From assembly GCA_012269555.1 (NCBI GenBank), contig JAAXKA010000185.1, positions 1 through 37,096 on the forward strand: a stretch of 37,096 nucleotides of DNA, read 5' to 3'. Both the position numbers and the translations under genes were made by a program. Under the pieces are notes generated by a model, which was not told where the DNA came from, made no database searches, and was given only the letters and a program-made list of their open reading frames with translations. The stretch is from Alphaproteobacteria bacterium (GTDB taxonomy: Bacteria > Pseudomonadota > Alphaproteobacteria > Puniceispirillales > Puniceispirillaceae). Positions 12,133-27,488 of this stretch are shown piece by piece (position 1 is the stretch's first letter; each line of letters begins with the position of its first letter).

Positions 12133-13239
12133 TCACACAAATGGTAAGTCTACTAATTCTGCTTCTTTCATACCCTGTTCAGTCTCAATTAACACAGACT
12201 CTCCCGCATGCACCTTTTTTGACACTAGAGCAAAACCAATAGTTTTTTCTAATTGAAAAGACCATGTACGATTAGTCAGACTTCCGACCAGCTCTCCCTG
12301 ATGATATATTGCCATCCATTCAAATATAGGCAAATTGCTGACATCCTTATTTTTGAATATTGCTCCTAATTGGTGTCTTTTCGGTCCCTGCTCATAGATT
12401 TTCTTAAGAGATGACAATCCAATTATATCCCCTTCAAGGTCAAGATCCAGATAATTGCCTAACCTAACTTCAAATGGGTTTGTTAAGTGGTCTGTATCTC
12501 CTCCAAAGGATAAGAGTCCGCTTTCAACTCTCTCGCTTAAATTAGGGCACCCAGGACCAATATTATATTTTTGACCAACCTCCTTGACAAAATTATATAA
12601 TTTTGTCCCCAGTCTTTTATTTTGCAAATAAAATTCAAAACCGCCTTGTTTAGAATAACCCGAACGGGCTACAAGAAATGGAATTCCCTCAATTTCAATA
12701 TGTCTAAACCAAAAATACTTAAGATCTCTTACCCAATTGCCGCATATTTCTGCTGCTAAATCCTCTGACTTTGGACCCTGGATAGCCAGGGGAGCGACAT
12801 CTGGCTCACTGATATCAACATTAAGCTGCCGCTCATAATTGATAGCGCGAGCCCATGACCATACATCACTATCCGCTATAGAAAACCAATAACAATCTTC
12901 ATCTATTTTCAGTAATACGGGATCATTTATAAGAACTCCTGAATGATTACATAAAGGGATATATTTTCCTTGTCCTATCTTCATCTTAGAAATATCCCGA
13001 GGACTTAATATTTGGGCTAATTTTCCTGCATTCTTTCCTTTTAATTGAACTTGGCGCTGAACAGCAACATCCCATAAAGAAACATCGTTTTTCAATCGCC
13101 AATACTCAGCTTCAGGGTTGCCGAAACCAGTAGGCAAAAACATAGAATTATATAGAGTAAAAGAGACTACCCCGTCATCAACAGTGGACTGGTAAAAAGG
13201 TGACCTAAGTGTGCGAGCTGAGGGAGATATATTAATCAT
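12133..13239 (-). CDS. dmdA: DmdA-like DMSP demethylase / GcvT-fold aminomethyltransferase-family protein
   Basis: Probable tetrahydrofolate-dependent demethylase that would turn dimethylsulfoniopropionate into 3-methylmercaptopropionate. The 368-residue length is that of DmdA. It shares the recognisable DmdA string of motifs: LYNSMFLPT, WDVAVQRQV, SPRDISKMKIGQ, the ADSD block, PLAIQGPKSEDL, RSGYSKQGGFEFY, GCPNLSERVESGLLSFG and NPFEVRLG. GYSKQGG and GCPN favour DmdA over the broader GcvT-like clade, which usually has SGEVG in the same place. Differences such as Ser for His in YNSM mean a related demethylase on another substrate cannot be excluded. GAGGA precedes ATG 13239. No dmdB, dmdC or dmdD gene is adjacent; the downstream partner is a beta-hydroxyacid dehydrogenase. 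Confidence 0.68.
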   Translation of the reverse strand: MINISPSARTLRSPFYQSTVDDGVVSFTLYNSMFLPTGFGNPEAEYWRLKNDVSLWDVAVQRQVQLKGKNAGKLAQILSPRDISKMKIGQGKYIPLCNHSGVLINDPVLLKIDEDCYWFSIADSDVWSWARAINYERQLNVDISEPDVAPLAIQGPKSEDLAAEICGNWVRDLKYFWFRHIEIEGIPFLVARSGYSKQGGFEFYLQNKRLGTKLYNFVKEVGQKYNIGPGCPNLSERVESGLLSFGGDTDHLTNPFEVRLGNYLDLDLEGDIIGLSSLKKIYEQGPKRHQLGAIFKNKDVSNLPIFEWMAIYHQGELVGSLTNRTWSFQLEKTIGFALVSKKVHAGESVLIETEQGMKEAELVDLPFV

Positions 13240-13356: not shown

Positions 13357-13652
13357 ATTAGATATTTATCTCCTTCAAAGTGTATGTCTCTAAAATTTTG
13401 ACTTTTACAACATTTAATTAGCAAAAAATTAAATATTTAAAAAAGAGGTTTTTCTTCTAACTTACCAGCAGTTGAGAACCTGTATAAACAAAAATATTCA
13501 ACTAGATTAATTCTAATAACAACAATTTTCTATCTAAACGTTGTAACTTAATGGACAATTTATTTCAAAAAAACATATTCTTATATTAAAATTAATCAAA
13601 GTTATAAATTATAAAGCTATTACTATGAACTTTTTTGGACCATTATTTTGAA

Positions 13653-14843
13653 ATGTCTAAATCAATGACTAAATTCGATTGGAGAGACCCTTTATCTCTA
13701 TCAGATCAATTAGGGAGTGAAGAAAAACTTATTCAGCAGACGGCAGCCCAATTTTCGTCTAATGAATTAGCCAAATTTCTACCAATAGCCTTTGACGCAA
13801 AAGGACTATCAAGAGAAGGGTACAAGGCTATAGGAGAGGCTGGGTTATTTGGTGTTACCTTACCAGAAAAATATGGTGGGGCTGGTTCTTCATTTATTTC
13901 ATATGGATTGATTGCAAGAGAAGTAGAGAGAATTGATTCTGGTTTTAGATCTATTCTTTCGGTTCAATCCTCTCTTGTAATGTATCCTATCTTTAAGTTT
14001 GGTACTACTTGGCAAAAACAAACCTATCTAAAAAAACTAGCCTCAGGCGAATTAATTGGCTGTTTTGGATTAACAGAACCCGAAGCTGGCTCAGACCCTG
14101 CTGCTATGCAAACTAGGGCAAAAAAAACATCCAATGGATATATTTTAAATGGTTCCAAGACTTGGATTTCCAATGCTTCTATTGCTGATATATTTATCAT
14201 CTGGGCGAAATCCGAAGACGAGGGTGGTGAAATCAAAGGCTTTATTGTTGAGAGACGAAACAAAGGAATTGAAACATCAAAAATTAACGGAAAGTTATCA
14301 ATGCAAACGGCTGATACTGGCTCGATCTACCTAACTAATGTAGAGGTGGACGAATCTTCAATCTTGCCAGACTGCACTGGATTAAAAGGTCCGTTCTCAT
14401 GCTTGAATTTAGCAAGGTATGGAATTTGTTGGGGGGTTTTGGGTGCAGCGGAGGATTGCTGGTTCAGAAGTTATGAATATGGAATACAAAGGCATCAGTT
14501 TTCGCGCCCACTTGCAGCAACTCAACTTTATCAGAAAAAACTTGTCGATATGCAAACAGAAATCACTTTGGGACTTCAAGCATGCTTAAGGCTAGGTCAA
14601 TTAATGGATAGTCAAAATGCAACGCCTGAAATGATATCTTTATTAAAACGAAATAATTGCGAAAAAGCGCTGACAATTGCCCGTGCATCTCGTGATATGC
14701 ATGGTGCTAATGGTATTCATCAGGATTATCAAGTAATGCGACATCTTGCTAATCTTGAGACAGTTAATACCTATGAGGGGACATCAGACATTCATGCACT
14801 TATCTTAGGAAGGGCACAGACTGGGATCCAAGCTTTTAACTAG
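13653..14843 (+). CDS. gcdH: Glutaryl-CoA dehydrogenase
   Basis: FAD enzyme that oxidises and decarboxylates glutaryl-CoA to crotonyl-CoA in lysine, tryptophan and glutarate breakdown. The 396-residue protein follows the family closely: FDWRDPLSLSDQL at the start, PEKYGGAGSSFISYGLIAREVER, SVQSSLVMYPI, GCFGLTEPEAGSDP, the ARYGI-WG-LGAAE stretch, LADMQ-type VDMQTEITLGLQACLRLG, MISLLKRNN, and the catalytic Glu375 in VNTYEGTSD. ATG 13653 is chosen over a TTG at 13635. It is monocistronic and convergent with coxG 40 bp away. An electron-transfer flavoprotein is presumably encoded elsewhere. Confidence 0.95.
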   Translation: MSKSMTKFDWRDPLSLSDQLGSEEKLIQQTAAQFSSNELAKFLPIAFDAKGLSREGYKAIGEAGLFGVTLPEKYGGAGSSFISYGLIAREVERIDSGFRSILSVQSSLVMYPIFKFGTTWQKQTYLKKLASGELIGCFGLTEPEAGSDPAAMQTRAKKTSNGYILNGSKTWISNASIADIFIIWAKSEDEGGEIKGFIVERRNKGIETSKINGKLSMQTADTGSIYLTNVEVDESSILPDCTGLKGPFSCLNLARYGICWGVLGAAEDCWFRSYEYGIQRHQFSRPLAATQLYQKKLVDMQTEITLGLQACLRLGQLMDSQNATPEMISLLKRNNCEKALTIARASRDMHGANGIHQDYQVMRHLANLETVNTYEGTSDIHALILGRAQTGIQAFN

Positions 14844-14883: not shown

Positions 14884-15330
14884 TTAATTATTCTCATTCA
14901 TAATTCCCTCAAACGACTGAAAAAAAGCTTTTGCCAATTTACGAGCTGTACTGGTAATAAGTCTACTTCCAAGCTGAGCTATCTTACCTCCAGTCTCTGC
15001 CTTAGCGAGATATTTTAAAATCGTTTTTTCACCATCATCAAGCAATTCAACTTCTGCACCTCCTTTTGCGAAACCAGCTACACCGCCTTCACCGGCACCA
15101 TTAAGAGTCAATCTAGACGGCGCATTTGTTGTATCCAGTTCAACAGAACCACTAAATTTTGCCTTAATAGGACCAATCTTCAGAAGAACTTTAGCACTAT
15201 ACTTATTCTCTTCTGTCATTGTTAATTCTTCACATCCAGGTATGCATAATTTTAAAATCGTTGGGTCTATTAGTTTTGCAAATACCTCTTTACGATTTCC
15301 AGGGATTATGATCTCATCACTTAGTTCCAT
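14884..15330 (-). CDS. coxG: CoxG / carbon monoxide dehydrogenase subunit G family (SRPBCC) protein
   Basis: CoxG proteins are START/SRPBCC-fold accessory proteins of CO-dehydrogenase-type molybdenum hydroxylases, implicated in membrane recruitment of the enzyme. The 148-residue protein shows the family pattern: IIIPGNRKEVFAKLIDP, CIPGCEELT, KVLLKIGPIKAKFSGSVEL, GAGEGGVAGFAKGGAEVEL, and GGKIAQLGSRLITSTARKLA. AAGGAAAA precedes ATG 15330. It is the last gene of the long minus-strand operon, 80 bp after the RutE-like gene. No coxL, coxM, coxS or other Mo-hydroxylase gene is in the window, so it either serves an enzyme encoded elsewhere or has a different role here. Confidence 0.85.
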   Translation of the reverse strand: MELSDEIIIPGNRKEVFAKLIDPTILKLCIPGCEELTMTEENKYSAKVLLKIGPIKAKFSGSVELDTTNAPSRLTLNGAGEGGVAGFAKGGAEVELLDDGEKTILKYLAKAETGGKIAQLGSRLITSTARKLAKAFFQSFEGIMNENN

Positions 15331-15410
15331 ATTATCTTTTCCTTAGAAAGGTCCTTTAAAACATTTAAAATTTTTGATTCTTTTGTGAAACACGCCAGCT
15401 CTTGAAAACA

Positions 15411-15992
15411 TTATAATATTTGACATGCATTTACGAAATCTATTCGAGGTGCTCTTGGACGCATTTTCTCATAATCCCCATAACCAAGATTAATAAGCAT
15501 ATTAGACCTCCAGCTAGTGCCTGAATAAAATGCCTCATCCGCAAGATTTTTGTTAAAACCATTCATAGGTCCGCAATCTAACCCAAGCAAACGGGCTGCA
15601 ATTAAAATGTAACCAGCCTGCAACCATGATAACTCTCTTGCAAATTTATCACGTTCTAATTCTGGTTGTGCCGCTATTTTAGATACATCTGCATGCGGTG
15701 CTAATAAAGAAATGTGCTTATGGTAATCAACATCATAAGCTATAATTATGGTTACGGGCGCAGAGGCAATTTTAGGCCGATTACCCTCACTCGCTGTTTC
15801 AATTAATTTTTCCTTGGCTTTTTGAGACTTAACAAAAGTAAGGCGCATTGGACAATAATTATTTGCAGTAGGCCCAAATTTTGCAAGTTCGTAAATTTCA
15901 CGTAATATAGCGTCATCAACACCTTTGCTGGAAAAACTGCGATGAGTCCTTGCTTCCACAAAAAGCTGTTTTTTTAATTCAGCTAAGTCCAT
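15411..15992 (-). CDS. Malonic semialdehyde reductase-like nitroreductase (RutE/HadB type)
   Basis: FMN-dependent nitroreductase-fold enzyme. In the uracil Rut pathway RutE reduces malonic semialdehyde to 3-hydroxypropionate. The 193-residue protein matches RutE in length and motifs: ARTHRSFSSKGVDDAILREIY, KFGPTANNYCPMRLTFV, APVTIIIAYD, the LQAGYILIAARLLGLDCGPMNGF stretch, and SNMLINLGYGD near the C-terminus. It begins 1 bp after the CoA transferase stop, so translation is probably coupled. No other rut gene is nearby, so the aldehyde or other electrophile it reduces in this operon is open. Confidence 0.82.
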   Translation of the reverse strand: MDLAELKKQLFVEARTHRSFSSKGVDDAILREIYELAKFGPTANNYCPMRLTFVKSQKAKEKLIETASEGNRPKIASAPVTIIIAYDVDYHKHISLLAPHADVSKIAAQPELERDKFARELSWLQAGYILIAARLLGLDCGPMNGFNKNLADEAFYSGTSWRSNMLINLGYGDYEKMRPRAPRIDFVNACQIL

Positions 15993-15993
15993 T

Positions 15994-17160
15994 TTAATAT
16001 CCCTCTGATTTGATAATATTGAATTCTCTTCTTAATTTGCTCCCATGCTGGTCAAGTTCTGGGACTTCACCTAATTGATATTTTTGCCCTTGAATAATAC
16101 CAGAGGGTGAGAAAAGATTATATTCTTTTCCTCCCGAACTGACCGAAATAAACTCTGTCTGAGAATGAACAAGTAAATCATCCAATCCGTTTAATCGTCC
16201 AAAAGCAATATTATTTTTTTGCAAAGCATCTGCTAACGTATCTAATTCTATTTCGGCAAATCTAGAGTTTATAATTTTATCTAGTGTATTTCTATTCACC
16301 ACACGATTAATATTATTATCAAATTCTGGTTTTGTGGCTAACCATTCCATTTCAAGAATTTCAGAACAAAAAATTTTAAATTCTCTTTCATTTTGGATCC
16401 CTATTAATATTTTTTTTCCATCCTTAGTTGAATATAGCCCATAGGGTGCAATAGTTGGATGATTCAACCCCACACGAGCTACATCTGTGTTTCCATAGTG
16501 CTTTTGCAAATGAGGTACATTCATCCAATCCATTAAACTATGAAATAGTGAGACCTCGATTTGACGTCCTTGATTTGTTTTTAATCGAGCATATAAAGCT
16601 TGCAGGATACTCTGATATGCAGTCATTCCAGCTGCAATGTCGCATACTGAAACACCTACCCTGCCTGGTTCTGATTCCGCTCCTGTGATGGAAGAAAGTC
16701 CTGTCTCTGCTTGAATGAGTAAATCATAAGCTTTTACATTTGCAAATTTCCCTGTTGAACCGTAGCCGCTAATATCACATCTAATTAATGAGGGATTTAA
16801 TCTTCGCATCTTCTGAAAATCAGCAACTAATCTGTCAATAACACCCGGCATGAGATTTTGTATAAAAACATCTGCATGCTCAACCATAGTTATCAAAACT
16901 TTTTTATCTTCCGGTTTTTTCAGGTCTAAACAAATTGACTCTTTTCCTCGGTTTAACCAAATAAAATAGGAACTTTTATTACCACCAGCCGCATCATATT
17001 TTCTGGCAAAATCACCCTCTGGTCGCTCTATCTTTATAACCCTAGCTCCAGCATCAGCTAACTTTCCTGACGCATATGGTCCTGCAACAGCTTGTTCAAC
17101 TGAAACAATTAGCAATCCTGCTAAATCAGTATTAAAATTTTTATCCTTTGACTTTTCCAT
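15994..17160 (-). CDS. CaiB/BaiF CoA transferase, mesaconate/citramalate/itaconate-like subgroup
   Basis: Family III CoA transferase of 388 residues. The N-terminus LIVSVEQAVAGPYASGKLADAGARVIKIERPEGDFARKYD resembles the mesaconyl-CoA, citramalate and itaconate CoA-transferase subgroup; the segment is quoted in part at residues 18-56. SSYFIWLNRGKESICLDLK and GYGSTG follow. Asp174 in SVCDIAAG is the expected aspartyl-thioester residue. ATG 17160 has AAGGT upstream and leaves 17 bp after the MmgE/PrpD gene; an earlier start would overlap it by 43 bp and add a non-family extension. With PrpD and acyl-CoA dehydrogenase neighbours it likely activates a short di- or tricarboxylic acid. The subgroup is assigned from memory of motifs. 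Confidence 0.85.
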   Translation of the reverse strand: MEKSKDKNFNTDLAGLLIVSVEQAVAGPYASGKLADAGARVIKIERPEGDFARKYDAAGGNKSSYFIWLNRGKESICLDLKKPEDKKVLITMVEHADVFIQNLMPGVIDRLVADFQKMRRLNPSLIRCDISGYGSTGKFANVKAYDLLIQAETGLSSITGAESEPGRVGVSVCDIAAGMTAYQSILQALYARLKTNQGRQIEVSLFHSLMDWMNVPHLQKHYGNTDVARVGLNHPTIAPYGLYSTKDGKKILIGIQNEREFKIFCSEILEMEWLATKPEFDNNINRVVNRNTLDKIINSRFAEIELDTLADALQKNNIAFGRLNGLDDLLVHSQTEFISVSSGGKEYNLFSPSGIIQGQKYQLGEVPELDQHGSKLRREFNIIKSEGY

Positions 17161-17177
17161 TCTTACCTTTTTTATGC

Positions 17178-18530
17178 TCAGAATTTTCGAAGCCAATCGC
17201 CAATTCCCTTGGCAGTGCAATTATCTTTGTTCTCAAGTAAATGATACAATAATTGTATTTTTTCTGTTTCAAGTAAATTATATGCCTTATCTTTAAGTCT
17301 TGGATAAGCATCAATAGCACTTTGGTTTTTATTCAAATCAAATTCAAAACTCTTTTTTGGCAAACCCTTTGAGCGCACAAAAACACTAGCAAAGCTATCT
17401 TCCATACTTTCATCGAAAGATACTTTTATTTTTTGCATCTGATGTTTGATTTCTTCATTCCTAACCAATTCTTCAAGGAAACTATCTAATGCTGCCGTAT
17501 TATATCCACAAATCAACAAAGCAGCTACGTAATGAAAACTAAATTTGCCTTGCAAACCTGTTTGCGGATTTTCAATGTCACAAACTCCATACCAACTAGA
17601 ACTAACTATAATATCAATCGTCTGAACAGTTTGTGGGTGAAGATAATTTTCTGATTTTGCTATAATTAAAGCTTCTATTGCCGCGTGTAACCCATGACAA
17701 CAGGCATGAAGTTTATAACTTACTTTATCAAAACGAAACGGTAATTCAGCACCTCGATCATAAAAAGATAAATGTGTTTTTTCTGGCGAATGTGTTTCAA
17801 TAAAGCCCTGTGGACTGCCAAGCCCATCTGGATTAGAGATAAAATCAAACCCTGCTAAAGTAGCTGCTTTGACTCCATTTGAAGCAGCTATTCCTGCATT
17901 AAGAGGCTTTCCCATTGTACCAAATTGAGACTTCAAACCAGATGCCATCGTGCTTGCTATCCCAAGAGCATGATATCTTTGTGTCTCCGTTAACTCAAGT
18001 AAACGACACGCTCCAATTACTGCCCCAAAACAACCTGCCGTTGCAGTTTGGTGAAAACCAGCTCTATAATGCTCCATGCCTAATATTTCCCCAACTAGTA
18101 TCGCTGCTTCTGCCCCAACCAGAAATGACTCTATGATATCAAGGTAGGTTTTATTGCTACTTTCGCTTAATGCTAAAATGGCGGGAAAAATGGCTGCTGA
18201 TAAATGACCAATATGCAGAAAATGAGTATCATCATAATCTAAAGCATGGGAGATTGTACCATTAGCTAAAGCGGCAAGATGAGGGGCTGTCTTAATATTA
18301 AGTCCCAATACTGATGATGTTTGATTTCCTCCTTCATTTTGAACAAACTGCTGTATTTTTTTTGTCACAGGTTCTTGGCTGCCTGCTGCAGATACCACTA
18401 ACCAATCAAAAAAGGAGTACTCGGCTACTTGCATGCATTTAGTTGGTAGTTCACTTGAGGAGAAATAGGAGTAACACACTAAATCCCTTGATACATTATC
18501 TACAACTTTTAAATAAGAATTATTATCCAT
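17178..18530 (-). CDS. MmgE/PrpD family protein
   Basis: The family holds 2-methylcitrate dehydratase (PrpD), cis-aconitate decarboxylase and several isomerases or dehydratases of small branched acids. The 450-residue protein is of normal length and carries LDYDDTHFLHIGHLSAAIFPA near residues ~82-102, where PrpD has the D-D-T-H...H-x-G block. Other family blocks are GKPLNAGIAASNGVKAATLA and the KLHACCHGLHAAIEA lid motif. ATG 18530 overlaps the acyl-CoA dehydrogenase stop by 8 bp (ATGGATAA), strong evidence of cotranscription. Function is most likely hydration, dehydration or decarboxylation of a small carboxylic acid in the operon's pathway; the true substrate is not visible. Confidence 0.85.
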   Translation of the reverse strand: MDNNSYLKVVDNVSRDLVCYSYFSSSELPTKCMQVAEYSFFDWLVVSAAGSQEPVTKKIQQFVQNEGGNQTSSVLGLNIKTAPHLAALANGTISHALDYDDTHFLHIGHLSAAIFPAILALSESSNKTYLDIIESFLVGAEAAILVGEILGMEHYRAGFHQTATAGCFGAVIGACRLLELTETQRYHALGIASTMASGLKSQFGTMGKPLNAGIAASNGVKAATLAGFDFISNPDGLGSPQGFIETHSPEKTHLSFYDRGAELPFRFDKVSYKLHACCHGLHAAIEALIIAKSENYLHPQTVQTIDIIVSSSWYGVCDIENPQTGLQGKFSFHYVAALLICGYNTAALDSFLEELVRNEEIKHQMQKIKVSFDESMEDSFASVFVRSKGLPKKSFEFDLNKNQSAIDAYPRLKDKAYNLLETEKIQLLYHLLENKDNCTAKGIGDWLRKF

Positions 18531-19686
18531 ATGATTTTGGCATACCAAGAATTTTTTCTGCAATATAGGACAAAATCATATTTGTTGAAATAGGTGCAAC
18601 CTGATACAGTCTGGTTTCACGATATTTTCGCTCAATATCGTATTCTTCTGCAAACCCAAAACCACCAAATGTCTGCATACATGCCTCCGCAGCCATCCAA
18701 GAAGCATCAGCAGCAAGAAGTTTTGCAATATTAGCACTTTCACCATCATTGATCCCATTATCAAATTTTTCTGCTGCATGATGCACCATTAATTCTGCAG
18801 CTTTCATATGTGCATAAGAGTTAGATATTGGAAATTGAATTCCCTGATTCTTTGAAATAGGCGCGTTAAACAGAATTCGATTATTCCCATATTCACTTGC
18901 CTGACGAATAAACCATTGGGCATCACCAATGCATTCTGCTGCTATTAAAACACGCTCAGCATTCATCCCAGAAAGAATATACTTAAAACCCTCCCCTTCG
19001 TTGCCAACGAGCGTATTTTTATCTACTTGCAAGTCCTGAATAAATATTTCAGTTGTCGAATGATTAATCATGGTACGAATTGGATTTATCTGAATGTGCT
19101 CCCCACTGGCCTCTCTCATATCAATTAAGAAAACAGACAGTCCGTCCGTTTTCTTAGTAACTTGTTCTATTGGGGTTGTTCTCGCCAAAAGTAATAATAA
19201 ATCAGAATACTCAGCTCTAGATGTCCATATTTTTTGGCCATTTATTATATAACCAGAGTCTGTTTTCTTTGCAAAAGTCTTTAAAGAGAGGGTATCTGTC
19301 CCAGTGTTTGGCTCAGTTACACCGAACGCTTGTAGACGAATATCTCCACTTGCAATTCCGGGTAAATATTTTTGCTTCTGATCTTTAGAACCATGCTTTA
19401 ATAAAGTTCCCATAATATACATTTGGGCATGGCAAGCAGCTGCATTCGCACCATTATAATGTATCCTTTTTAAAATTTCTAAAGCTGTTCTCAATCCTAG
19501 CTCAGAACCCCCATATTCTTCTGGAATCAAGGCTGCCAAATAACCAGAGGTGGATAACTTTTGGACAAATTGAGATGGATATTCTCTGTTTCTGTCTAAA
19601 TCCCTCCAATAAGACATAGGAAATTCAGAGCAAATAGCATCAACGCCAATGTGAATATCATTTATTAACTGGTCAAGTTCGCTCAT
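18523..19686 (-). CDS. Acyl-CoA dehydrogenase with IVD-type catalytic Glu
   Basis: FAD-dependent alpha,beta-desaturation of an acyl-CoA. The 387-residue protein has PEEYGGSELGL, the FGVTEPNTGTDTLSLKT FAD/substrate loop, INGQKIWTSRAEYSD, and the QTFGGFGFAEEYDIERKYRETRLY C-terminal block. At the usual catalytic-Glu place (YEGT in MCAD-type enzymes) it has Tyr-Gln-Val-Ala (Gln362). However, Glu244 in GMNAERV matches the position of Glu254 in isovaleryl-CoA dehydrogenase, so an alternative base is present and a branched acyl group is plausible. ATG 19686 begins 7 bp after the amidohydrolase stop. Its stop overlaps the MmgE/PrpD start. Confidence 0.88.
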   Translation of the reverse strand: MSELDQLINDIHIGVDAICSEFPMSYWRDLDRNREYPSQFVQKLSTSGYLAALIPEEYGGSELGLRTALEILKRIHYNGANAAACHAQMYIMGTLLKHGSKDQKQKYLPGIASGDIRLQAFGVTEPNTGTDTLSLKTFAKKTDSGYIINGQKIWTSRAEYSDLLLLLARTTPIEQVTKKTDGLSVFLIDMREASGEHIQINPIRTMINHSTTEIFIQDLQVDKNTLVGNEGEGFKYILSGMNAERVLIAAECIGDAQWFIRQASEYGNNRILFNAPISKNQGIQFPISNSYAHMKAAELMVHHAAEKFDNGINDGESANIAKLLAADASWMAAEACMQTFGGFGFAEEYDIERKYRETRLYQVAPISTNMILSYIAEKILGMPKSYG

Positions 19687-19693
19687 TCTAATT

Positions 19694-21070
19694 TTAACCA
19701 AAATCAGCCGTAGCTGCTTTGGACTTGAACTCGTTGTAAATTTTTCTCCCAGATGATTCTAGATTTGATAGCTTAGTATCTAAATCTGCAAAGTTAAGCT
19801 TCCCATTTTGCTTCATTATCTCACCTTCAATGATAACTGTATCAACATTGCCTGGATGACCATAACATATAATAGAATGAAGTGGGTTAAAGCTATTTTT
19901 CAAGTTCAAATCATTGTTTCTTAATAATGTGATATCTGCTTTTTTCCCGATTTCTAATGTACCAATTTTATCATCAAGTCTAAAATCTTTAGCGCCGTTT
20001 ATGGTTGCCCAATCAAACGCATCTGATGTTGTAATTGGGATAGGATGCGGTCTTTGTCCTGTTTTCGATTGCTCTTCACGACTCAAAAAATGCCTCTCAA
20101 CTTGCATTGTTGTTCGTGCAATCGCAAACATGTCGGGGGAATAAGCACTTTCAATATCTGAGCCTATTGAAAATGGATAATTTTTTTTCAATAATCTTGC
20201 AGAAAGAGGGTTTCCATATGACATTTGCATTTCAACTTCTGCGGTAATAGTGAACGTAGCCCCAGAGTCAGTCAGAACCTCCAAATCCTTTTCTAATAAT
20301 TCGTTTCCATGCACAATATTGATATGTTCACCAAGCAAACCATCTTTATAGGCCATAGAATATGCCTGCTCACCAACCATTTGCAAACCAGAATGGTGCA
20401 TACTAGTTACCAAGTCCATGTCCTTTGCTAACTTAAAATCCTGCATACATACTTCGTTCACAGCCATTTGTGGACCAAGAATAGCAAGCCCCATTGTTAC
20501 CTTTTTATCAGAACTAGACATTCGGCCAGAACGAAGCCTAACTACCTCATTTTCTGGCATTGGAACTTCAGAAAAGTGTGGCTGCCCCGGTGCTGGATCT
20601 GGTTTTGGTGTCCCATGCAAAAATACAGCTCGTATGCCGGACTCCTCTAATCCGTCAATTGCTGCATCAGAATGATCGGGCGTACGGTTGCAGTGGTGCC
20701 AGTCAACTAAAGTAGTAACACCGTTGTTAATTTGGTTAAGAGCGCCTACCAAATTAGCAATGTAAATGTCTTCAGGCTCAAAAAATGTAGCTAAGCCAGC
20801 ATGCATTGCTCTAAAGTAATTAGTTGCTGTCCAATCGCCAGCCAGTCCACGCAAACCAGTCTGCCAAGTATGTATATGGGCATTTACAAAGCCAGGCATC
20901 ACTAGCATATTTTTTGCATCTATCTCTTTATATTTATTAGGATTTTCAATTGAGGTTTCTATAGAAACTATTATTCCGTCTTTTACCAATATATCATGTT
21001 TCTGGTCGTAATTTTTAAAATCACTACCAGATACAATAAGCGCATTTTTAATAAGTAAATCACCCGGCAT
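19694..21070 (-). CDS. Amidohydrolase, TRZ/ATZ (cytosine-deaminase-like) family
   Basis: Metal-dependent hydrolase or deaminase of 458 residues acting on a ring or amidine C-N (or C-halogen) bond. It has an N-terminal beta-sandwich piece, PGFVNAHIHTWQTG with metal ligands His65 and His67, MHHSG (His225/226), VHGNEL (His254), IGSDIE (Asp305), and the C-terminal IGTLEIGKKADITLL. In deaminases of this family the third ligand is followed by a catalytic Glu (H-x-x-E); here that place is Gly228, and the HCP segment after the fourth ligand is replaced. Reaction chemistry may therefore differ. GGAGGAGAG in front of ATG 21070 is the strongest ribosome site in the operon. It lies 24 bp after the TRAP permease gene. 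Confidence 0.85.
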   Translation of the reverse strand: MPGDLLIKNALIVSGSDFKNYDQKHDILVKDGIIVSIETSIENPNKYKEIDAKNMLVMPGFVNAHIHTWQTGLRGLAGDWTATNYFRAMHAGLATFFEPEDIYIANLVGALNQINNGVTTLVDWHHCNRTPDHSDAAIDGLEESGIRAVFLHGTPKPDPAPGQPHFSEVPMPENEVVRLRSGRMSSSDKKVTMGLAILGPQMAVNEVCMQDFKLAKDMDLVTSMHHSGLQMVGEQAYSMAYKDGLLGEHINIVHGNELLEKDLEVLTDSGATFTITAEVEMQMSYGNPLSARLLKKNYPFSIGSDIESAYSPDMFAIARTTMQVERHFLSREEQSKTGQRPHPIPITTSDAFDWATINGAKDFRLDDKIGTLEIGKKADITLLRNNDLNLKNSFNPLHSIICYGHPGNVDTVIIEGEIMKQNGKLNFADLDTKLSNLESSGRKIYNEFKSKAATADFG

Positions 21071-21094
21071 AATAGCTCTCCTCCATTTGAATAA

Positions 21095-23017
21095 TTAAAT
21101 TAAAATTGTTACGATCCATGGGAAATAGATTAGTATTGCTATAACAAATAGCATAGCGATTACGAATGGTGTGGACCCTGTAAAAATATCCCCTAGTGAT
21201 ACATTTAAATTTTTAGGCAAAGATGCCTTCACTACAAAAACACTTAAACCAAACGGCGGCGTCAGTAATCCCAGTTCGATTGCAATCACGGTAATTATGC
21301 CGAACCAAATTTGGTCAACACCCATAGCAATTGTATAGGGAAGAGCAATTGGTAATAAAATTAACAAAGCCGATACTGAATCAAGAACCATTCCTAAAAG
21401 GATAATAATTAATATATGCAAAACCAAAAAAGCTATTAAATTTAAATCCATTGCTTGCAGAAAATTTGTTAGATGCATCGGAATTCCAGACAATGCAAGC
21501 ATCCTAGTATACAGGCTAGAAGCAATAATTAAGAATAAAATTCCTGAGGTAATAAACCCTGCTTCAAATACAACTTCTTTAAATGTTTGAAAGTTTATTT
21601 TCCTTCTAAGAATAGCAGTAATTAATGCTCCAAGTGCTCCAACAGCTCCGGCTTCAGTGGGTGAGAAAAATCCAGCATATATCCCACCCATTACTAGAAA
21701 AATAAGAAATAAAATAGGTAAAATCTGTATTAATTTATTCTGTTTATCTTCGATTTCAGGCATTTCAAGAGATGGATTAATCTTTTCCAAAACACTGTTA
21801 GGAAAAAATTTTACAGAACAAAATATCATTAAACCAAAAATACATGAGAGTAATATACCCGGTAATATCCCAGCAATGAAAAGTTTTCCAATTGATACTT
21901 CCGCAAGAATTCCATAGATAATTAGCAGAATACTAGGAGGAATAAGCATGCCAAGCACTGAACTTCCTGCTACAATTCCAACCGCAAAACGATTCTTAAA
22001 TCCATGATAAACCATAGGTGGCACAGCAATTCGGCTAAACACTGATGCAGAGGCTAAGGAAGAACCAGTAATCGAGGCAAAAATTGCATTTGCAAATACA
22101 GTTGCTATACCGAGTCCACCTTTTAACCACCTTAAAGTGCGGACAGCGAGCGCAAACGCATCTTTACCGACATCTCCCCGTTCCAATAATAAACCCATTA
22201 AAACAAAAAGTGGAACAACTCCAAATTCAAAAGATTGGATCGCTGTAGCAGAACTCATACCTAGGGATTTAAAAGCAACTGGAAATTTATTTATGATTAG
22301 CCAAATGCCCGCGAATGAACTAAACATCAAAGCAATTCCAATTGGCATTCCCATTAATACTAAAAATAGCATGCCGCCAAAAGCAATAAAGCCTAATTCT
22401 GCTCGCGTTAATGGTAAACCTGTTAATAAAAAAAATAAAATTACAACAAAGGCCAGTAAACCCATCATAAGAATTTTATCTTTAATATCACCAAAGCCAT
22501 CTTGGTAAATAGTATAAAGATGGATTAATATAACTCTAATTATTTCAAAAATGATTATAAGGGAAGCTATGGAATTTACCAGTTTGAACGGCCATGTTGG
22601 TATAGTAAATGCTCCAATTGCACCAGTAAATTCCGAGCCAATGTAAGCCTTATAAAAATCTGCCCAGAAGTAGATGGATATAAAATAAAAAACCACTAAT
22701 GCAGCAACAAAAAATAGACTAGTTAACAAATTACTAAATGATGGACTTATTTTCTGAAACAGGGTGGAAAATATTTCTGCAGATATTAAACGGTTGCGTC
22801 GAATGGTAATTCCTATTTGCAAAAAAACAACAGAAACTATACCAAAACCGACTATTTCAGAGACTCCATTTATTGGGAAGCTAAAGAGATTTCTCAGTAA
22901 AACATCTACACAAATTAAAATAGTTGCTAAAATAATAGCAACTGATGCAGCCCACGCGAATGATACTGAGATTGTATCAACTATATGGTCTATATATTTT
23001 AAAAATTTAATGTACAT
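21095..23017 (-). CDS. dctQM: Fused TRAP transporter permease DctQM
   Basis: Single polypeptide of 640 residues joining the small (DctQ) and large (DctM) membrane subunits of a sodium-coupled TRAP transporter. Residues ~1-165 are the four-helix DctQ part (with VDVLLRNLFSFPINGVSEIVG). A hydrophobic linker helix follows, and then the 12-helix DctM part from about 205, with LMGMPIGIALMFSS, ITGSSLASASVFSRIAVPPM, GSSVLGMLIPPSILLIIYG, GFFSPTEAGAVGALGAL and ELGLLTPPFGLSVFVVK. Such fusions are common in marine bacteria. ATG 23017 gives a normal N-terminus although AGGA abuts it; a TTG at 23044 is the alternative. The gene follows dctP after a stem-loop. Confidence 0.92.
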   Translation of the reverse strand: MYIKFLKYIDHIVDTISVSFAWAASVAIILATILICVDVLLRNLFSFPINGVSEIVGFGIVSVVFLQIGITIRRNRLISAEIFSTLFQKISPSFSNLLTSLFFVAALVVFYFISIYFWADFYKAYIGSEFTGAIGAFTIPTWPFKLVNSIASLIIIFEIIRVILIHLYTIYQDGFGDIKDKILMMGLLAFVVILFFLLTGLPLTRAELGFIAFGGMLFLVLMGMPIGIALMFSSFAGIWLIINKFPVAFKSLGMSSATAIQSFEFGVVPLFVLMGLLLERGDVGKDAFALAVRTLRWLKGGLGIATVFANAIFASITGSSLASASVFSRIAVPPMVYHGFKNRFAVGIVAGSSVLGMLIPPSILLIIYGILAEVSIGKLFIAGILPGILLSCIFGLMIFCSVKFFPNSVLEKINPSLEMPEIEDKQNKLIQILPILFLIFLVMGGIYAGFFSPTEAGAVGALGALITAILRRKINFQTFKEVVFEAGFITSGILFLIIASSLYTRMLALSGIPMHLTNFLQAMDLNLIAFLVLHILIIILLGMVLDSVSALLILLPIALPYTIAMGVDQIWFGIITVIAIELGLLTPPFGLSVFVVKASLPKNLNVSLGDIFTGSTPFVIAMLFVIAILIYFPWIVTILI

Positions 23018-23032
23018 TCCTGAAATACGGCA

Positions 23033-23057
23033 GGCGGCTAACAAACCATCAGCCGCC
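23033..23057 (-). promoter_or_regulatory. GC-rich stem-loop between dctP and dctQM
   Basis: GGCGGCT (23033-23039) and AGCCGCC (23051-23057) form a perfect 7-bp, mostly G-C stem with an 11-nt loop, unusual in this AT-rich DNA. It lies 19 bp past the dctP stop and ends 15 bp before the dctQM ATG. On the minus strand no U-tract follows, so partial attenuation or protection of the dctP mRNA end is more likely than full termination. Confidence 0.55.
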
Positions 23058-23076
23058 CCAACCTTTTTATCAATAT

Positions 23077-24156
23077 TTAAATATTTGCGGACCAGTCCCT
23101 AAGTGGTTGACCAGTTTCTGCGGCGAGTTTCATGAATTTTTTAAGTATATCGCCAGCAGGAATACCTTTCGGCTCAAGGTTTTGTACAAATAAGGCTCCC
23201 AGATCTTCCATACCATTTGCCATATCTTTTCTTTGACTATCTGGCATTTCACGAATAGTACAACCAAAAGCCTCATATGCTCCAAGTGCCTTTTTACCAA
23301 GTATATTAATAACACCCGCATTTGCAGAGGAATATTCTCTTCCAAGAGTTTTAAGTACATCTTGTACTTCAGAGGGTAATGAATTGAATACGTCCAAATT
23401 CATTCCACTTGCACCAAAAGTAAATGGACCTGTATCCACTAATGTTACATGCTTAGCTTGTTCATATAACTTTAATGGAAATGCTCCTGCATGGATTATA
23501 ATGACGCCATCACCAACACCTGTTTCAAGTTGCGAGTACATAGCCGGTAGTCCAGATGGCACAACAGTAGCCCCAAAAGGAGTAAGATAAGGCGCTGTTG
23601 TGGGAGCTCCTAGAATTTTCATTCCCTCTAAATCAGACAACTTATTGATAGGTTTTTTGGTAAACAAATGATACCCCCCTGAGACACATGCGCCAAAAGA
23701 GATTACATCTTGTTTTGTCCATTCGTCCTGCATTGCTTTTTCGCTATCATCTAGTGCATTCATAATGCCAACAGCCTGCTCCGGACTAGTAGTTGTAAAG
23801 GGCGTGCTGAAATATATATTATGAAGTGGAAGTGTTGAAGGCTCCCAGAGACTTCCAATCCAACCAATATCTGTTAAATTATTAGTCACCGCCTCTAATG
23901 TGTCATTAAAATTATAGAGTGCTCCTCCATAAGCTTCAGTCCATTCTATTTCGTATTCACTTCCGCGCTCTTTGAGCATGCTATTTGCTTTAGCAACGAT
24001 AACAGACTGAAGTGGACCCACCCATGGTATTACTGTTGGATGACTAGATGCAATCGTGAGATTAATTTTCTTTGTCGCAGCAATAGCCTCTTTGAAAGCT
24101 GCCAATGGCATACTAGCCGCGATTAATCCTGCATTAAAGTTTCTTCTGTTTATCAT
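23077..24156 (-). CDS. dctP: TRAP transporter substrate-binding protein (DctP family)
   Basis: Periplasmic solute receptor delivering ligand to DctQM. The 359-residue precursor begins MINRRNFNAGLIAASMPLAAF, a signal with twin arginines resembling a Tat leader. Family features include the FSTPF element, KPINKLSDLEGMKI, and the SQLETGVGDGVI stretch that matches the ALQTGVVDG block. At the position of the nearly invariant carboxylate-binding Arg (as in KLRVP of sialic-acid SiaP), this protein has Leu182 (EGMKILGAP). The ligand may thus not be bound through a classical Arg-carboxylate bridge. GGGGAGGT precedes ATG 24156. It is 58 bp after the SDR gene. Confidence 0.9.
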   Translation of the reverse strand: MINRRNFNAGLIAASMPLAAFKEAIAATKKINLTIASSHPTVIPWVGPLQSVIVAKANSMLKERGSEYEIEWTEAYGGALYNFNDTLEAVTNNLTDIGWIGSLWEPSTLPLHNIYFSTPFTTTSPEQAVGIMNALDDSEKAMQDEWTKQDVISFGACVSGGYHLFTKKPINKLSDLEGMKILGAPTTAPYLTPFGATVVPSGLPAMYSQLETGVGDGVIIIHAGAFPLKLYEQAKHVTLVDTGPFTFGASGMNLDVFNSLPSEVQDVLKTLGREYSSANAGVINILGKKALGAYEAFGCTIREMPDSQRKDMANGMEDLGALFVQNLEPKGIPAGDILKKFMKLAAETGQPLRDWSANI

Positions 24157-24214
24157 TTTTACCTCCCCATGAATTACAGATTTCCAGTTTTTTAATAATA
24201 ATCAATATATCAGC

Positions 24215-25003
24215 TTAACTTATATATTTCGTGATACCACCGCAGATTTCTACGGTAGTTCCCGTCATGTATGAATTTCTCTCCGACACCATAAAAGCTG
24301 CTAAATCGCCAACTTCACTAGGTTCTGCCCATCTTCCAAGCATTGTCTGAGAAGCAAACCCTTTGCGCAATTCTTCTGAAGTAGTATTTCTGACTTTAGC
24401 CATTGCCTCACCTCTAGGCCCCCAAGATTCTGTGTTTATCATGCCAGGGCAAATATTATTCACTGTAATATTACTGGAGCCTAATTCGTTAGCCATTAAT
24501 TTGTTAAAACCTATGAGGCCAGCATTTGGTATAGTGGTAGATAATGCTCCCGGCATAAGTTGTGTACCAGAAAATCCTGTAACGTTAAGTATCCTTGCCC
24601 AATCATTGTTTTTTAAATGTTCAGCAGCATGTTTTGTTGTATATACTGCTGCCATAAGATTAACGTTTATTGCCCTAGCCCATGTATCTTCACCCATAGT
24701 TGCTAGCGTGCCTGGTATCATACCGCCAACGTTATTAACTAAAATTTGTAAACTTCCAAGCTCTTTTACAGCCTCTTCAATAAATAGCTGACAGCCGTCC
24801 TCTGAAGATAAATCTGCAATAACACCTACAGCTTTAACTCCTTTAGCTTTTAGTTCTGAGACCGTCTGGTCGAGTCTTTCTTTGTTTCTTGCACAGATTG
24901 CGACATTACAACCCTCATTAGCCAATGCATGAGCAACAGCTTCTCCAATGCCTTGGCTAGCGCCAGTTATAGCAGCGTTCTTATTTTTTAGACCTAAATC
25001 CAT
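24215..25003 (-). CDS. Short-chain dehydrogenase/reductase-like protein lacking the Tyr-Lys dyad
   Basis: Rossmann-fold protein of 262 residues: TGASQGIG (13-20), the Asp of ADLSS (~64), NNVGG (90-94), and N-x-N (113/115). The ICPGMINT stretch and the C-terminal MTGTTVEICGG are also typical. The segment that should be Y-x-x-x-K reads STTIPNAGLIGFNK: Thr156 replaces Tyr and Asn160 replaces Lys, while the rest of the helix is conserved. It either has a changed mechanism or is not a conventional oxidoreductase. GGAGA sits 7 nt before ATG 25003, favouring it over a TTG at 25021. It is the first gene of the minus-strand operon; its promoter should lie in the 187-bp spacer shared with the divergent AhpD-like gene. 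Confidence 0.85.
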   Translation of the reverse strand: MDLGLKNKNAAITGASQGIGEAVAHALANEGCNVAICARNKERLDQTVSELKAKGVKAVGVIADLSSEDGCQLFIEEAVKELGSLQILVNNVGGMIPGTLATMGEDTWARAINVNLMAAVYTTKHAAEHLKNNDWARILNVTGFSGTQLMPGALSTTIPNAGLIGFNKLMANELGSSNITVNNICPGMINTESWGPRGEAMAKVRNTTSEELRKGFASQTMLGRWAEPSEVGDLAAFMVSERNSYMTGTTVEICGGITKYIS

Positions 25004-25190
25004 ATCAAAGTCTCCAAACAATTTCGTTAACTGTATATATTTTCAAGAAAAAAATATTTTAATCAAACAAAAATTATGTTTTCTTGGGAAAATGTGAATT
25101 CATAATATTCGTATAAATTTATAATCAAATTTATGATACCATTAAAATTGAAGTTTAATTATATCTCTAACCATTAAAATGGGGTTGAAT

Positions 25191-25772
25191 ATGCCAAGAA
25201 TTGATTACGTAGATGAAGAAACAATTTCGGATGAGGCCAGAACTTTAATTGAAAGTGCTGACGAAACTGGGGCTCCTGACCCACGATGTGTACGAATTTA
25301 TGTTAAAAATAAAGATGCTGGCGTCGAATGGGTTAAATATTGGAACAGTTTGCTTTATGGGGGCGTGCTTCCTCATGCCCTAAAGGAATTATGTAGAATC
25401 TATATTTCGATTGATCATGAATGTGGGTATTGCTCAACGGTTAGATCTACTAAGGGTGCTGCAGAGGGTGTTACTGAAGAAAAAGTGGCAGCTTTAATGC
25501 ATTTCGAAGCCTCAGACCTGTTTTCAGAAAAAGAAAAAATAGCCCTTAGCTATGCTAAAAAATTTAAAACTAGCGTGACCGAAATTGACAATGATGAGGT
25601 TTACAACTCTTTAAAAAAGACATTCACAGACGAAGAAATTATTGAACTTGGAATGCTTTGTGCACAGACTGACGGTGTTGGAAAATTTGCAAAGTCTTTA
25701 AATATTATAAGCTGGGAAGATGCATGTATGATCAATCCTAATATTGTAAAAAAAGAATATGCTAATTCTTAA
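25191..25772 (+). CDS. AhpD-like / carboxymuconolactone decarboxylase-family protein with CxxC
   Basis: All-helical protein of 194 residues related to alkylhydroperoxidase AhpD. The DHECGYCSTVRST segment carries Cys78-Gly-Tyr-Cys81, the redox pair, preceded by Glu77. In AhpD a His lies four residues after the second Cys; here the corresponding place is Arg85. Many such proteins are peroxidase- or disulfide-type enzymes of unknown substrate. GGGG six bases before ATG 25191 supports this start over an ATG at 25179. It is divergent from the big catabolic operon and 36 bp ahead of an SDR gene, with which it likely forms a two-gene operon. Confidence 0.78.
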   Translation: MPRIDYVDEETISDEARTLIESADETGAPDPRCVRIYVKNKDAGVEWVKYWNSLLYGGVLPHALKELCRIYISIDHECGYCSTVRSTKGAAEGVTEEKVAALMHFEASDLFSEKEKIALSYAKKFKTSVTEIDNDEVYNSLKKTFTDEEIIELGMLCAQTDGVGKFAKSLNIISWEDACMINPNIVKKEYANS

Positions 25773-25808
25773 AATAATAGTTTTTAATCTATTTGAGGGA
25801 ACAAATTA

Positions 25809-26537
25809 ATGCCAACCGTATTGATAACTGGTGCGAATCGTGGTCTTGGGCTAGAATTTACAAAAATTTATGCCGAAAATAAGTGGAAGGTTATTGCATG
25901 TTGCCGCACGCCAGACAAAGCATCTGAATTAAAACAAATTAAATCAGAGTTTGACTCACAAATAATCATTTTCAAAATGGATATTTGCAATCAAAAAGAC
26001 ATTGATGATTTTTGCAATGAAAATAAAACTACCACAATTGATTTGCTAATTAATAATGCTGGCGCACAATTCGAAAATTATGGCTCTGCAGCATATGAAA
26101 GTATGGGAGAGGATCCAAACCCTGCTAATTATGATTATGAAATGTGGGCAGAAACTATGAAAATAAACTTATTCGCCCCAACGAAATTGACAGGTCATTT
26201 AACACCAATGTTAGAGCGAAGTGATAACGCCAAAGTCATTATGCTATCCTCTGGTATAGCAAGTCTCGAGAATACTTGGCAAGCAGGTAGATATGCCTAT
26301 AAAACAAGTAAAGCCGCTCTGAACATGGTGGTGCGTACCTTGGGTGAATGGCTGCAAACAAAGAAAATTGCTACATTCGCCGTGTCACCAGGTTGGACGA
26401 GAACTGATATGGGAGGACCAAACGCTCCCCATGATTCCAGGACAGCCGTTGTTGGATTGTATAAAGTGATATTGGAAGCAGATTTCACAAATACTGGAAG
26501 CTTCTACAATTTTGATGGAAAAAAAATACCCTGGTAG
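25809..26537 (+). CDS. Short-chain dehydrogenase/reductase (C-factor-like)
   Basis: NAD(P)-dependent oxidoreductase of 242 residues. It has TGANRGLGLEF (7-17), the NNAGA motif (82-86), Ser147/Ser148 in MLSSG, and the intact Tyr164-x-x-x-Lys168 pair (RYAYKTSKAAL), then SPGWTRTDMGG. The GANRGLGLE start and the PGWTRTDMGG ending are those of the CsgA/C-factor-type subgroup. GAGGGA lies upstream of ATG 25809. The substrate is unknown; the AhpD-like partner gives no clear hint. It is convergent with the next gene, only 11 bp between stops. Confidence 0.88.
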   Translation: MPTVLITGANRGLGLEFTKIYAENKWKVIACCRTPDKASELKQIKSEFDSQIIIFKMDICNQKDIDDFCNENKTTTIDLLINNAGAQFENYGSAAYESMGEDPNPANYDYEMWAETMKINLFAPTKLTGHLTPMLERSDNAKVIMLSSGIASLENTWQAGRYAYKTSKAALNMVVRTLGEWLQTKKIATFAVSPGWTRTDMGGPNAPHDSRTAVVGLYKVILEADFTNTGSFYNFDGKKIPW

Positions 26538-26548
26538 GGATAGTGCCT

Positions 26549-27427
26549 TTAAGATAATTTTCGCTGCCATCCAGCAATCTCGGTATGGTCACACCCTAAT
26601 TCTAGTTCATTTTCTGCTCTTTTCCATTTATCTATACTTGTCTTTGAAAGGCTAAAATCAACTTTTAGAGAATTAGCAAGGTTCAAAGCTGTAAGAATAT
26701 CTTTATTCATTAAGTCCATTCTAAAACCAGAATTGAATTTTTCGGATAGAATAAATTGATGAAATTTATTTTCAGTACTATTGTTTTTTCCCGAAGAATA
26801 ATTCAGCACATCTATAAAAGTATCCGGCATAACACCAAATTTTTCTGCCAATGACAATGCCTCCGCAACCACAAGCAAACCCGTTGCAGAACATAGATTA
26901 TTAAGGCATTTACAAGCTTGTCCGCTTCCTAAAGACCCTGTATGAATTATTTTTCCTCCCATCAAAGTCAAGGTAGGCATTGCTTTTTCAACATTGGGTT
27001 TATCACCACCCACTAAAATGGCCAATTCTCCAGATATTGCCTTTTTAACTCCACCAGAAACAGGTGCATCTATTAGATCTACACCCATTTTCGTTAAAGT
27101 GTTCCCAAGTTCAATTGTAAGATGTGGATCACTTGAACTCATGTCTATTGCAAGTGTTCCCTCCTTTAAATTAGATAAAATTCCTTTGTTACCATAATAA
27201 ACTTCTTGAACAATGGATATGTCAGGGAGACAAGTAATTACCGTATCCGAATTTGTAGCCAGTTCAGACAAATCATTTGTTGGTACGACGTTTTCCGGCC
27301 ACAAATTCTTTTTCAAGGTTTCTATATTTAAATCAAATACGTAAATATTATGCTGTTTTTCTTTAGCTAAATTTTGTGCCATGGGGAAACCCATGTTACC
27401 CAAGCCAATAAAACCAATATTGCTCAT
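26549..27427 (-). CDS. NAD(P)-dependent beta-hydroxyacid dehydrogenase (3-hydroxyisobutyrate / tartronate semialdehyde type)
   Basis: A 292-residue member of the same family as the gene at 11188-12087, but closer to the canonical motifs. GFIGLGNMGFPMA (5-17), Asp32 for NAD preference, DAPVSGGVKKAISGELAILVGG (120-141, cited in part), and GQACKCLNNL with catalytic Lys173 and Asn176/177. It could act as 3-hydroxyisobutyrate dehydrogenase or 2-hydroxy-3-oxopropionate (tartronate semialdehyde) reductase. It is the last gene of the YciI / hydrolase / dehydrogenase group, 61 bp after the hydrolase. The two paralogues in this window differ enough in the substrate motif to suggest different substrates. 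Confidence 0.87.
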   Translation of the reverse strand: MSNIGFIGLGNMGFPMAQNLAKEKQHNIYVFDLNIETLKKNLWPENVVPTNDLSELATNSDTVITCLPDISIVQEVYYGNKGILSNLKEGTLAIDMSSSDPHLTIELGNTLTKMGVDLIDAPVSGGVKKAISGELAILVGGDKPNVEKAMPTLTLMGGKIIHTGSLGSGQACKCLNNLCSATGLLVVAEALSLAEKFGVMPDTFIDVLNYSSGKNNSTENKFHQFILSEKFNSGFRMDLMNKDILTALNLANSLKVDFSLSKTSIDKWKRAENELELGCDHTEIAGWQRKLS

Positions 27428-27488
27428 AACTTCTCATTACCTCTACAATAAAAAAACCTGAATCTAGAGAAAAATTTCTTTTTGCTGT

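Follow-up and report, generated by a model that had tools for sequence, protein, structure and literature searches.

A nine-gene block of a SAR116 alphaproteobacterium that may join a TRAP importer and an amidohydrolase to a methylsuccinate/itaconate-type CoA module

The nine-gene block and its conservation in the genus

The stretch of DNA analysed here (the window) comprises positions 1 to 37,096 of contig JAAXKA010000185.1, 37,096 nucleotides in all, from a SAR116 alphaproteobacterium of the family Puniceispirillaceae, whose genome assembly (GCA_012269555.1) amounts to 2.47 Mb in 247 contigs and is 96% complete. Between positions 14884 and 25003, nine genes lie together on the minus strand. 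The block starts with a short-chain dehydrogenase (SDR; 24215–25003, start ATG 25003; PF13561/PF00106), followed by a DctP binding protein of the tripartite ATP-independent periplasmic (TRAP) type without the conserved carboxylate-binding arginine (23077–24156; PF03480, 70.3 bits against a gathering score of 23.4) and a fused TRAP DctQ-DctM permease (21095–23044; PF04290 and PF06808). Then come an amidohydrolase of the PRK08204 subfamily with an ATZ/TRZ fold (19694–21070; Amidohydro_1), an acyl-CoA dehydrogenase (ACAD; 18523–19701, likely start ATG 19686; Acyl-CoA_dh), an MmgE/PrpD protein predicted to isomerise or epimerise a 1,4-dicarboxylate at C2 (17178–18563, likely start ATG 18530; PF03972 and PF19305) and a CaiB/BaiF CoA-transferase resembling itaconate CoA-transferase (15994–17220, likely start ATG 17160; PF02515, CoA_transf_3, 311 bits). 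The last two genes encode a RutE-like FMN reductase of the nitroreductase family (15411–15992; PF00881; NF003768, 233.7 bits against a cut-off of 152) and a CoxG-family (SRPBCC) protein that is predicted to dock a flavoenzyme at the membrane (14884–15330; PF06240, 101 bits). An earlier note on this DNA had described nine genes of named families on one strand with tight junctions, devoted to uptake, CoA activation and desaturation; open reading frames and family matches confirm the gene content, and family membership upholds the general reading.

The junctions are indeed short. The gaps measure 58 bp (SDR-DctP), 32 bp (DctP-DctQM), 24 bp (DctQM-amidohydrolase), 1 bp (CaiB-RutE) and 80 bp (RutE-CoxG), and with the ATG starts given above the remaining junctions are +7 bp (amidohydrolase-ACAD), −8 bp, an overlap (ACAD-MmgE), and +17 bp (MmgE-CaiB), so that gaps range from 1 to 80 bp with a single 8-bp overlap. 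The longer TTG starts of the open reading frame list for ACAD, MmgE and CaiB would make the same three junctions −8, −41 and −43 bp. Consensus scans neither split nor join the genes of the block: 44 promoter-like sites were found vs 38.7 ± 8.3 in shuffles, and the 3 terminator-like sites (7.7 ± 2.5 in shuffles) give no boundary or joining signal.

Genomes are denoted G (G000 is the source genome; G001, G002, G006, G007 and G008 are members of its genus) and examined loci L. Comparison of gene order in related genomes, which the earlier note had proposed as a check, revealed that the whole nine-gene order and its flanks are kept in G001 (L014) and G007 (L015), that is, in 3 of 10 genus genomes including its own. 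The amidohydrolase (E 1e-60) has matches in 5 of 151 genomes, its own included; these five all belong to the genus, which is represented by 10 genomes. A fourth genus genome, G002, carries a decayed version of the block (L017) that retains CoxG, RutE, ACAD and the amidohydrolase. This stretch has lost SDR, DctP and the fused permease, and no block-type MmgE or DctP was found elsewhere in the genome. At 6600–7300 of L017, with ACAD and RutE intact on either side, a decayed MmgE start and CaiB end are still visible. G008, a genome 61% complete, has the amidohydrolase on an 11.7-kb stretch that contains none of the other eight block genes, and no MmgE, DctP or ACAD turned up in the rest of this genome.

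The dN/dS ratio (nonsynonymous to synonymous substitution rates) against G001 and G007 lies between 0.014 and 0.138 in 16 of 18 comparisons, the two others (DctP and SDR vs G007) being saturated and many dS values exceeding 1.5, which makes the estimates rough. Against G002, ratios of 0.065–0.158 were obtained for ACAD, the amidohydrolase and RutE, whereas CoxG was saturated; the permease comparison with G002 (0.405) involves a paralogue. The block genes are under purifying selection. Given the order conserved in three genomes and the low dN/dS, the block is therefore more than a chance assembly. DNA identity to G001 (L014) is 71–79% left of ~16.0 kb, 87–98% from ~16.0 to 28.5 kb and 84–88% over the kilobase after ~28.5 kb. 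Because identity steps from 71–79% to 87–98%, with the jump inside the CaiB gene, the right part, which holds the importer, the amidohydrolase and the CoA genes, is probably a recombination block exchanged between the G000 and G001 lineages. This mosaic structure, together with the partial loss in G002 and the G008 stretch on which the amidohydrolase is the only gene of the block, would suit a recombined catabolic island that houses two independent functions (TRAP with amidohydrolase, and CaiB-MmgE-ACAD) rather than a single pathway. However, the short or overlapping junctions and the order kept in three genomes speak for one unit, as does the distribution of ACAD: four of the 10 genus genomes have it, and every one of these four also has the amidohydrolase. 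We regard two separate functions as clearly unlikely.

The CaiB-MmgE-ACAD trio

The closest described counterpart of the trio is the itaconate/methylsuccinate cluster of Pseudomonas aeruginosa (PA0878-0886) and Cupriavidus necator (E6A55_22580-22600), worked out in 2023–2025 (accessible text of PMC9875883 and PMC12290011). There, ACAD and MmgE beside Ict/Ich/Ccl are described as methylsuccinyl-C4-CoA dehydrogenase and methylsuccinate isomerase (Msi), PA0884-0886 as a dedicated branched dicarboxylate transporter and PA0880 as a 2-hydroxyparaconate lactonase (the latter two in PMC9875883). The window block shares with it the presence of CaiB, MmgE/PrpD and ACAD in one cluster and, with that of P. 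aeruginosa, a dedicated transporter. By contrast, it has no hydratase or lyase, its MmgE belongs to another subfamily and its DctP has no carboxylate arginine, and it adds an amidohydrolase, RutE, SDR and CoxG. Thus, the earlier view that the mix matches no known pathway is not supported, since the trio is similar to that part of the itaconate cluster which deals with methylsuccinate, and itaconate and mesaconate, which the same note had named as test compounds, are sensible choices. No published description of the nine-gene set was found in the openly accessible literature.

All seven catalytic positions of iminodisuccinate (IDS) epimerase and methylsuccinate isomerase are present in the window MmgE (H106, D109, H120, Y166, H171, K219 and K284). 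In IDS epimerase they are H85, D88, H99, Y145, H150, K198 and K266, and the residue numbers published for Pseudomonas Msi give a spacing of E+3, H+14, Y+60, H+64, K+114 and K+178 (both from the accessible text of PMC12290011). The window protein has D+3, H+14, Y+60, H+65, K+113 and K+178, which is the IDS epimerase spacing at five of six offsets, and in view of the difference from Msi the name methylsuccinate isomerase was rejected. The exact Msi offsets occur in 3 of 32 aligned MmgE proteins, those of L086 (Aminobacter), L091 (Mesorhizobium) and L162, and all three genes adjoin an ACAD 61–64% identical to that of the window as well as CaiB, Ich-like and Ccl-like genes. A sample of the phylum, meant to supply beta- and gammaproteobacterial references, gave matches in the Alphaproteobacteria only.

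Among solved structures, the relatives of the window MmgE are headed by B. subtilis IRG1, with IDS epimerase further down. This kinship and the shared spacing would be expected if MmgE epimerised an N-substituted succinate (iminodisuccinate- or N-acyl-aspartate-like) from which the amidohydrolase strips the N-substituent. However, the first five offsets are common to 21 of the 31 other aligned proteins (22 of 32 with the window's own), including those of the Palleronia, Paracoccaceae La6, Shinella and Cupriavidus loci, and its partners ACAD and CaiB suggest succinates substituted on carbon, which makes an N-substituted substrate very unlikely. The window MmgE is likely an isomerase.

The window ACAD, a candidate methylsuccinyl-C4-CoA dehydrogenase, shares the NAER and APIS motifs with the 61–64% identical enzymes of L086, L091 and L162. 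In the alignment this group stands against four other ACADs with EGT; L094 has NSER, and three rows have APVS. Of 385 genomes of the class, 124 have a member of the group (E 1e-130). Among the 42 genome loci, 27 have at least one of four partner genes within 6 kb of ACAD, namely CaiB at 21 loci, Ich at 17, MmgE at 6 and Ccl at 5. Among the 12 plasmid loci this applies to 11, with CaiB at 8, Ich at 9, Ccl at 7 and MmgE at 7 (E 1e-12 and per-gene identity floors of 25–40% in both sets). These counts come from chosen loci: L173, L179, L060 and L061 were selected via MmgE searches, which biases them towards MmgE neighbours, the other 40 genome loci are mostly the best-scoring ACAD places and not a random sample, and the plasmid loci were drawn from the highest-ranking matches. 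Homologues of the amidohydrolase, DctP, RutE and CoxG occur within 6 kb of ACAD at 0 of 42 genome loci and 0 of 12 plasmid loci.

Full five-gene clusters are present in Aminobacter SR38 (L086), Mesorhizobium AR02 (L091) and Paracoccaceae La6 (L060); they have an ACAD 54–64% and a CaiB 43–53% identical to those of the window along with an MmgE, which in L060 is of the window type, and unlike the block they carry Ich- and Ccl-like genes. Their upper genes differ, being, by record names, a Rut-like set in L086 and a thiamine pyrophosphate (TPP) enzyme with an aldehyde dehydrogenase in L091. Within the same family, G015 groups ACAD (65%), CaiB (58%), Ich and Ccl at L132, while G022 has MmgE, Ich, Ccl and CaiB together (L063) and ACAD apart (L143). 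The window CaiB is 39–58% identical overall to the CaiB proteins of loci with ACAD and/or MmgE plus Ich-/Ccl-like genes, with 47–58% for L060, L063, L065 and L132, which carry both Ich- and Ccl-like genes, and 43–47% for the three Msi-signature clusters. On the ACAD and MmgE signatures, the neighbourhoods and the family members taken together, the window trio is most readily understood as a further arrangement of these lower-pathway genes.

The Cupriavidus megaplasmid clusters (L062, L166 and L167) were discarded as references, their ACADs being of the other, EGT type and 26–27% identical to that of the window. The MmgE genes near these EGT-type ACADs are 38–39% identical to the window's, and that of L166 is split by an intervening stretch.

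The importer, the amidohydrolase and the accessory proteins

The arginine equivalent to Arg-147 of SiaP is absent from the window DctP, which has a leucine in its place (GMKILGAP, vs LKFRV in L001 and GMEIRGA in the solved 4nap, where Leu stands against Arg). Of 11 other DctP proteins that could be aligned there, 10 likewise have no Arg, the exception being L001; this count excludes L002, L003, L005 and L139 (truncated or off-target alignments) and L004, L006, L065 and L084 (no alignment). According to the accessible text of PMC4646407, TRAP binding proteins without this arginine make up ~3% of the family, and the examples noted there have a hydrophobic pocket or bind ethanolamine. In 12 of 13 plasmid records, members of the arginine-less subfamily are annotated as C4-dicarboxylate binding proteins. 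The nearest solved DctP proteins (best E 1.3e-16) are too distant to name a substrate, and the predicted model was too poor (predicted local distance difference test, pLDDT, 54.8) for a reading of the fold. In G006, an arginine-less DctP adjoins another RutE-like nitroreductase, 39% identical to that of the window, at 3390–5573 of L068, a second DctP-RutE pairing.

The same mix of transporter, CoA-transferase, MmgE and ACAD would also result if the block imported branched C5 dicarboxylates (methylsuccinate, itaconate or mesaconate) directly, with the amidohydrolase in a side role, opening a cyclic derivative much like the PA0880 lactonase in the cluster served by the branched dicarboxylate transporter PA0884-0886, which we take to be of the TRAP type. 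A DctP without the carboxylate arginine and the position of Ich and Ccl outside the block argue against direct import, and we consider it rather unlikely.

The amidohydrolase has all the metal ligands of the ATZ/TRZ fold (HxH, H, H, D). No Glu is found at position 228, that of the HxxE motif, in 25 of 25 aligned relatives; the alignment pairs His226, which is variable in the family, with the E of 3lnp. In ATZ/TRZ aminohydrolases, the Glu of HxxE is catalytic and lies three residues beyond the third His. Of the C-N bond hydrolysis put forward in the earlier note, the deaminase fold keeps the general idea plausible, but the glutamate that usually goes with it is missing. E280 and E307, both invariant, are candidates to stand in for it. 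PRK08204-type amidohydrolases of other alphaproteobacteria (L028 and L031) are 55–60% identical over most or all of their length; both lie near a 2-oxoglutarate (2OG)-Fe(II) oxygenase, with an SDR and an EamA protein in L031 and an ATP-grasp protein in L028. At the loci examined outside the genus, the amidohydrolase homologues have neighbours other than those of the block, and no substrate clue was gained from them. In G008, at 8620–11081 of L016, the amidohydrolase adjoins a RihA/UriH-like nucleoside hydrolase that scores below the NCBIfam cut-offs of those families, a possible hint at nucleobase-like substrates.

The nearest solved relative of the RutE-like reductase by sequence is IstO (7vqk). 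The block has a RutE-family reductase in common with the uracil Rut pathway, but the RutA, RutB, RutC and RutD families are absent among the nine genes. The handling of malonic semialdehyde, proposed in the earlier note, had the RutE family match as its sole support, and this intermediate was dropped. A pyrimidine- or purine-like ring might still be deaminated or opened by the amidohydrolase, with RutE reducing a semialdehyde as in the Rut pathway. The nucleobase-deaminase fold, the RutE score above the NCBIfam cut-off, the nucleoside hydrolase neighbour in G008 and the coupling of Rut-like genes (record names) to the five-gene module on the Aminobacter plasmid (L086) are consistent with such ring degradation. 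On the other hand, neither the lack of RutA-D nor the loss of the HxxE glutamate throughout the aligned relatives fits it, and to our knowledge the Rut route requires no CaiB, MmgE or ACAD. On balance, ring degradation of this kind seems quite unlikely.

On this Aminobacter SR38 plasmid, pSR3 (L086, 756–15517), the Rut-like set is annotated as RidA, an alpha/beta hydrolase, a flavin reductase and an opposite-strand luciferase-like monooxygenase (LLM) oxidoreductase; it adjoins MmgE, ACAD, CaiB, hydratase, lyase and electron-transfer flavoprotein (ETF) genes, a second upper pathway into the module. The strain is reportedly called atrazine-degrading in its genome paper.

CoxG is described as the membrane anchor of a flavin dehydrogenase in the accessible text of PMC11962113, and by analogy the window protein may dock a flavoenzyme at the membrane. 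A role in CO oxidation was rejected: none of the nine genes encodes a structural subunit of CO dehydrogenase, and MoCoBD_1 has no match on the contig of the window, the matches of this genome lying on other contigs.

A possible route and its meaning for SAR116

The reading that we favour, tentatively and at somewhat less than even chances, is that the block joins a TRAP importer and an amidohydrolase to a methylsuccinate/itaconate-type trio, so that a neutral N-containing precursor would be converted via a 2-substituted succinate to a mesaconyl-CoA-type thioester. DctPQM would import a ligand independently of an arginine-carboxylate contact, and the amidohydrolase would cut a C-N bond (of an amide, imide, lactam or ring amine), freeing a branched diacid with a C4 backbone. 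MmgE would then isomerise or epimerise the diacid at C2, CaiB would move CoA onto it from succinyl-CoA and ACAD would form the enoyl-CoA, from which a hydratase and a lyase acting in trans would yield acetyl-CoA and pyruvate. CoxG might dock a flavoenzyme at the membrane, whereas RutE and SDR might trim the upper part by C=C or aldehyde reduction and alcohol oxidation. The block thus appears to be a branched C5-diacid CoA module of an already known kind with a new upper part, and its predicted substrate is a probably uncharged N-containing compound.

Several observations weigh against this route. At the lower end, the Ich hydratase and Ccl lyase are absent from the nine-gene block, and the Ich- and Ccl-like genes of its own genome, which lie side by side on another contig (C144:57554-59196), are 35–43% identical to their counterparts in relatives. 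This pair is found in 6 of 8 genomes searched, including G005 and G009, which are without the block, and it was not found in the block carrier G001 (73% complete). Moreover, the Ccl-like reference proteins reach 161–164 bits vs the NCBIfam RipC_Ccl cut-off of 375; no NCBIfam model matched the Ich-like ones. A link in trans between the block and the C144 hydratase and lyase is no more than plausible. The window MmgE departs from the Pseudomonas Msi pattern, as described above, and the block was tied to PA0879, PA0881 and the C. necator enzymes through signatures and synteny rather than through direct sequence comparison. ACAD is present at only 2 of 10 further loci chosen by window-type MmgE (from 12 other places); L063 and L065, from relatives in the family and order, have a window-type MmgE with CaiB, Ich and Ccl and no ACAD nearby. 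Since ACAD is often missing beside window-type MmgE, this protein may be a dehydratase or decarboxylase. Conversely, ACAD stands without any of the four partners at 15 of the 42 genome loci. Finally, seven loci outside the genus around amidohydrolase homologues (44–60%) have no block-type ACAD or MmgE, and the CaiB-type gene present at L028 and L031 is nearer another CaiB of the window.

A more specific version can be imagined, in which the arginine-less TRAP system, the glutamate-less amidohydrolase and, in a helping role, RutE make up a new upper pathway by which a cyclic imide or lactam enters the branched C5-diacid CoA route, for example methylmaleimide-type debris of chlorophyll and bilins broken by sunlight. 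Import of the neutral ring would be followed by C=C reduction and by opening of the imide or lactam through hydrolysis, which would yield an acid of the methylsuccinate type, and then by isomerisation by the new-subfamily MmgE, CoA transfer and desaturation. We consider this chain highly improbable.

On either side of the block, further genes were noted. A second acyl-CoA dehydrogenase (13635–14843, plus strand), convergent with CoxG, is kept in G001, G002 and G007. On the other side (25179–28397), family matches identify a CMD-family protein and a second SDR (SDR2) on the plus strand and a 3-hydroxyisobutyrate-dehydrogenase-family protein and an alpha/beta hydrolase on the minus strand, all kept in G001 and G007; this flank has no orthologous match within the L017 stretch of G002. 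At 12133–13239 (minus strand), a GcvT-family protein is nearest the dimethylsulfoniopropionate (DMSP) demethylase DmdA, with 380.8 bits, below the NCBIfam cut-off of 410, and this DmdA-like paralogue adjoins an acyl-CoA dehydrogenase and a 3-hydroxyisobutyrate-dehydrogenase-family gene. Overlapping genes at 30891–32967 (minus strand) encode a 418-residue protein without a Pfam match and a haloacid dehalogenase (HAD)-type phosphatase.

SAR116 is a common lineage of the surface ocean, and for an operon of unclear purpose in this lineage the analysis leaves a short list, namely, which 2-substituted succinate MmgE, CaiB and ACAD accept and which, likely uncharged, precursor DctP and the amidohydrolase handle. 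More broadly, the ACAD-CaiB-hydratase(-lyase) set recurs across alphaproteobacteria, on plasmids behind differing upper genes, and the block draws attention to an MmgE/PrpD subfamily that is so far uncharacterised as well as to a TRAP subfamily that lacks the arginine.

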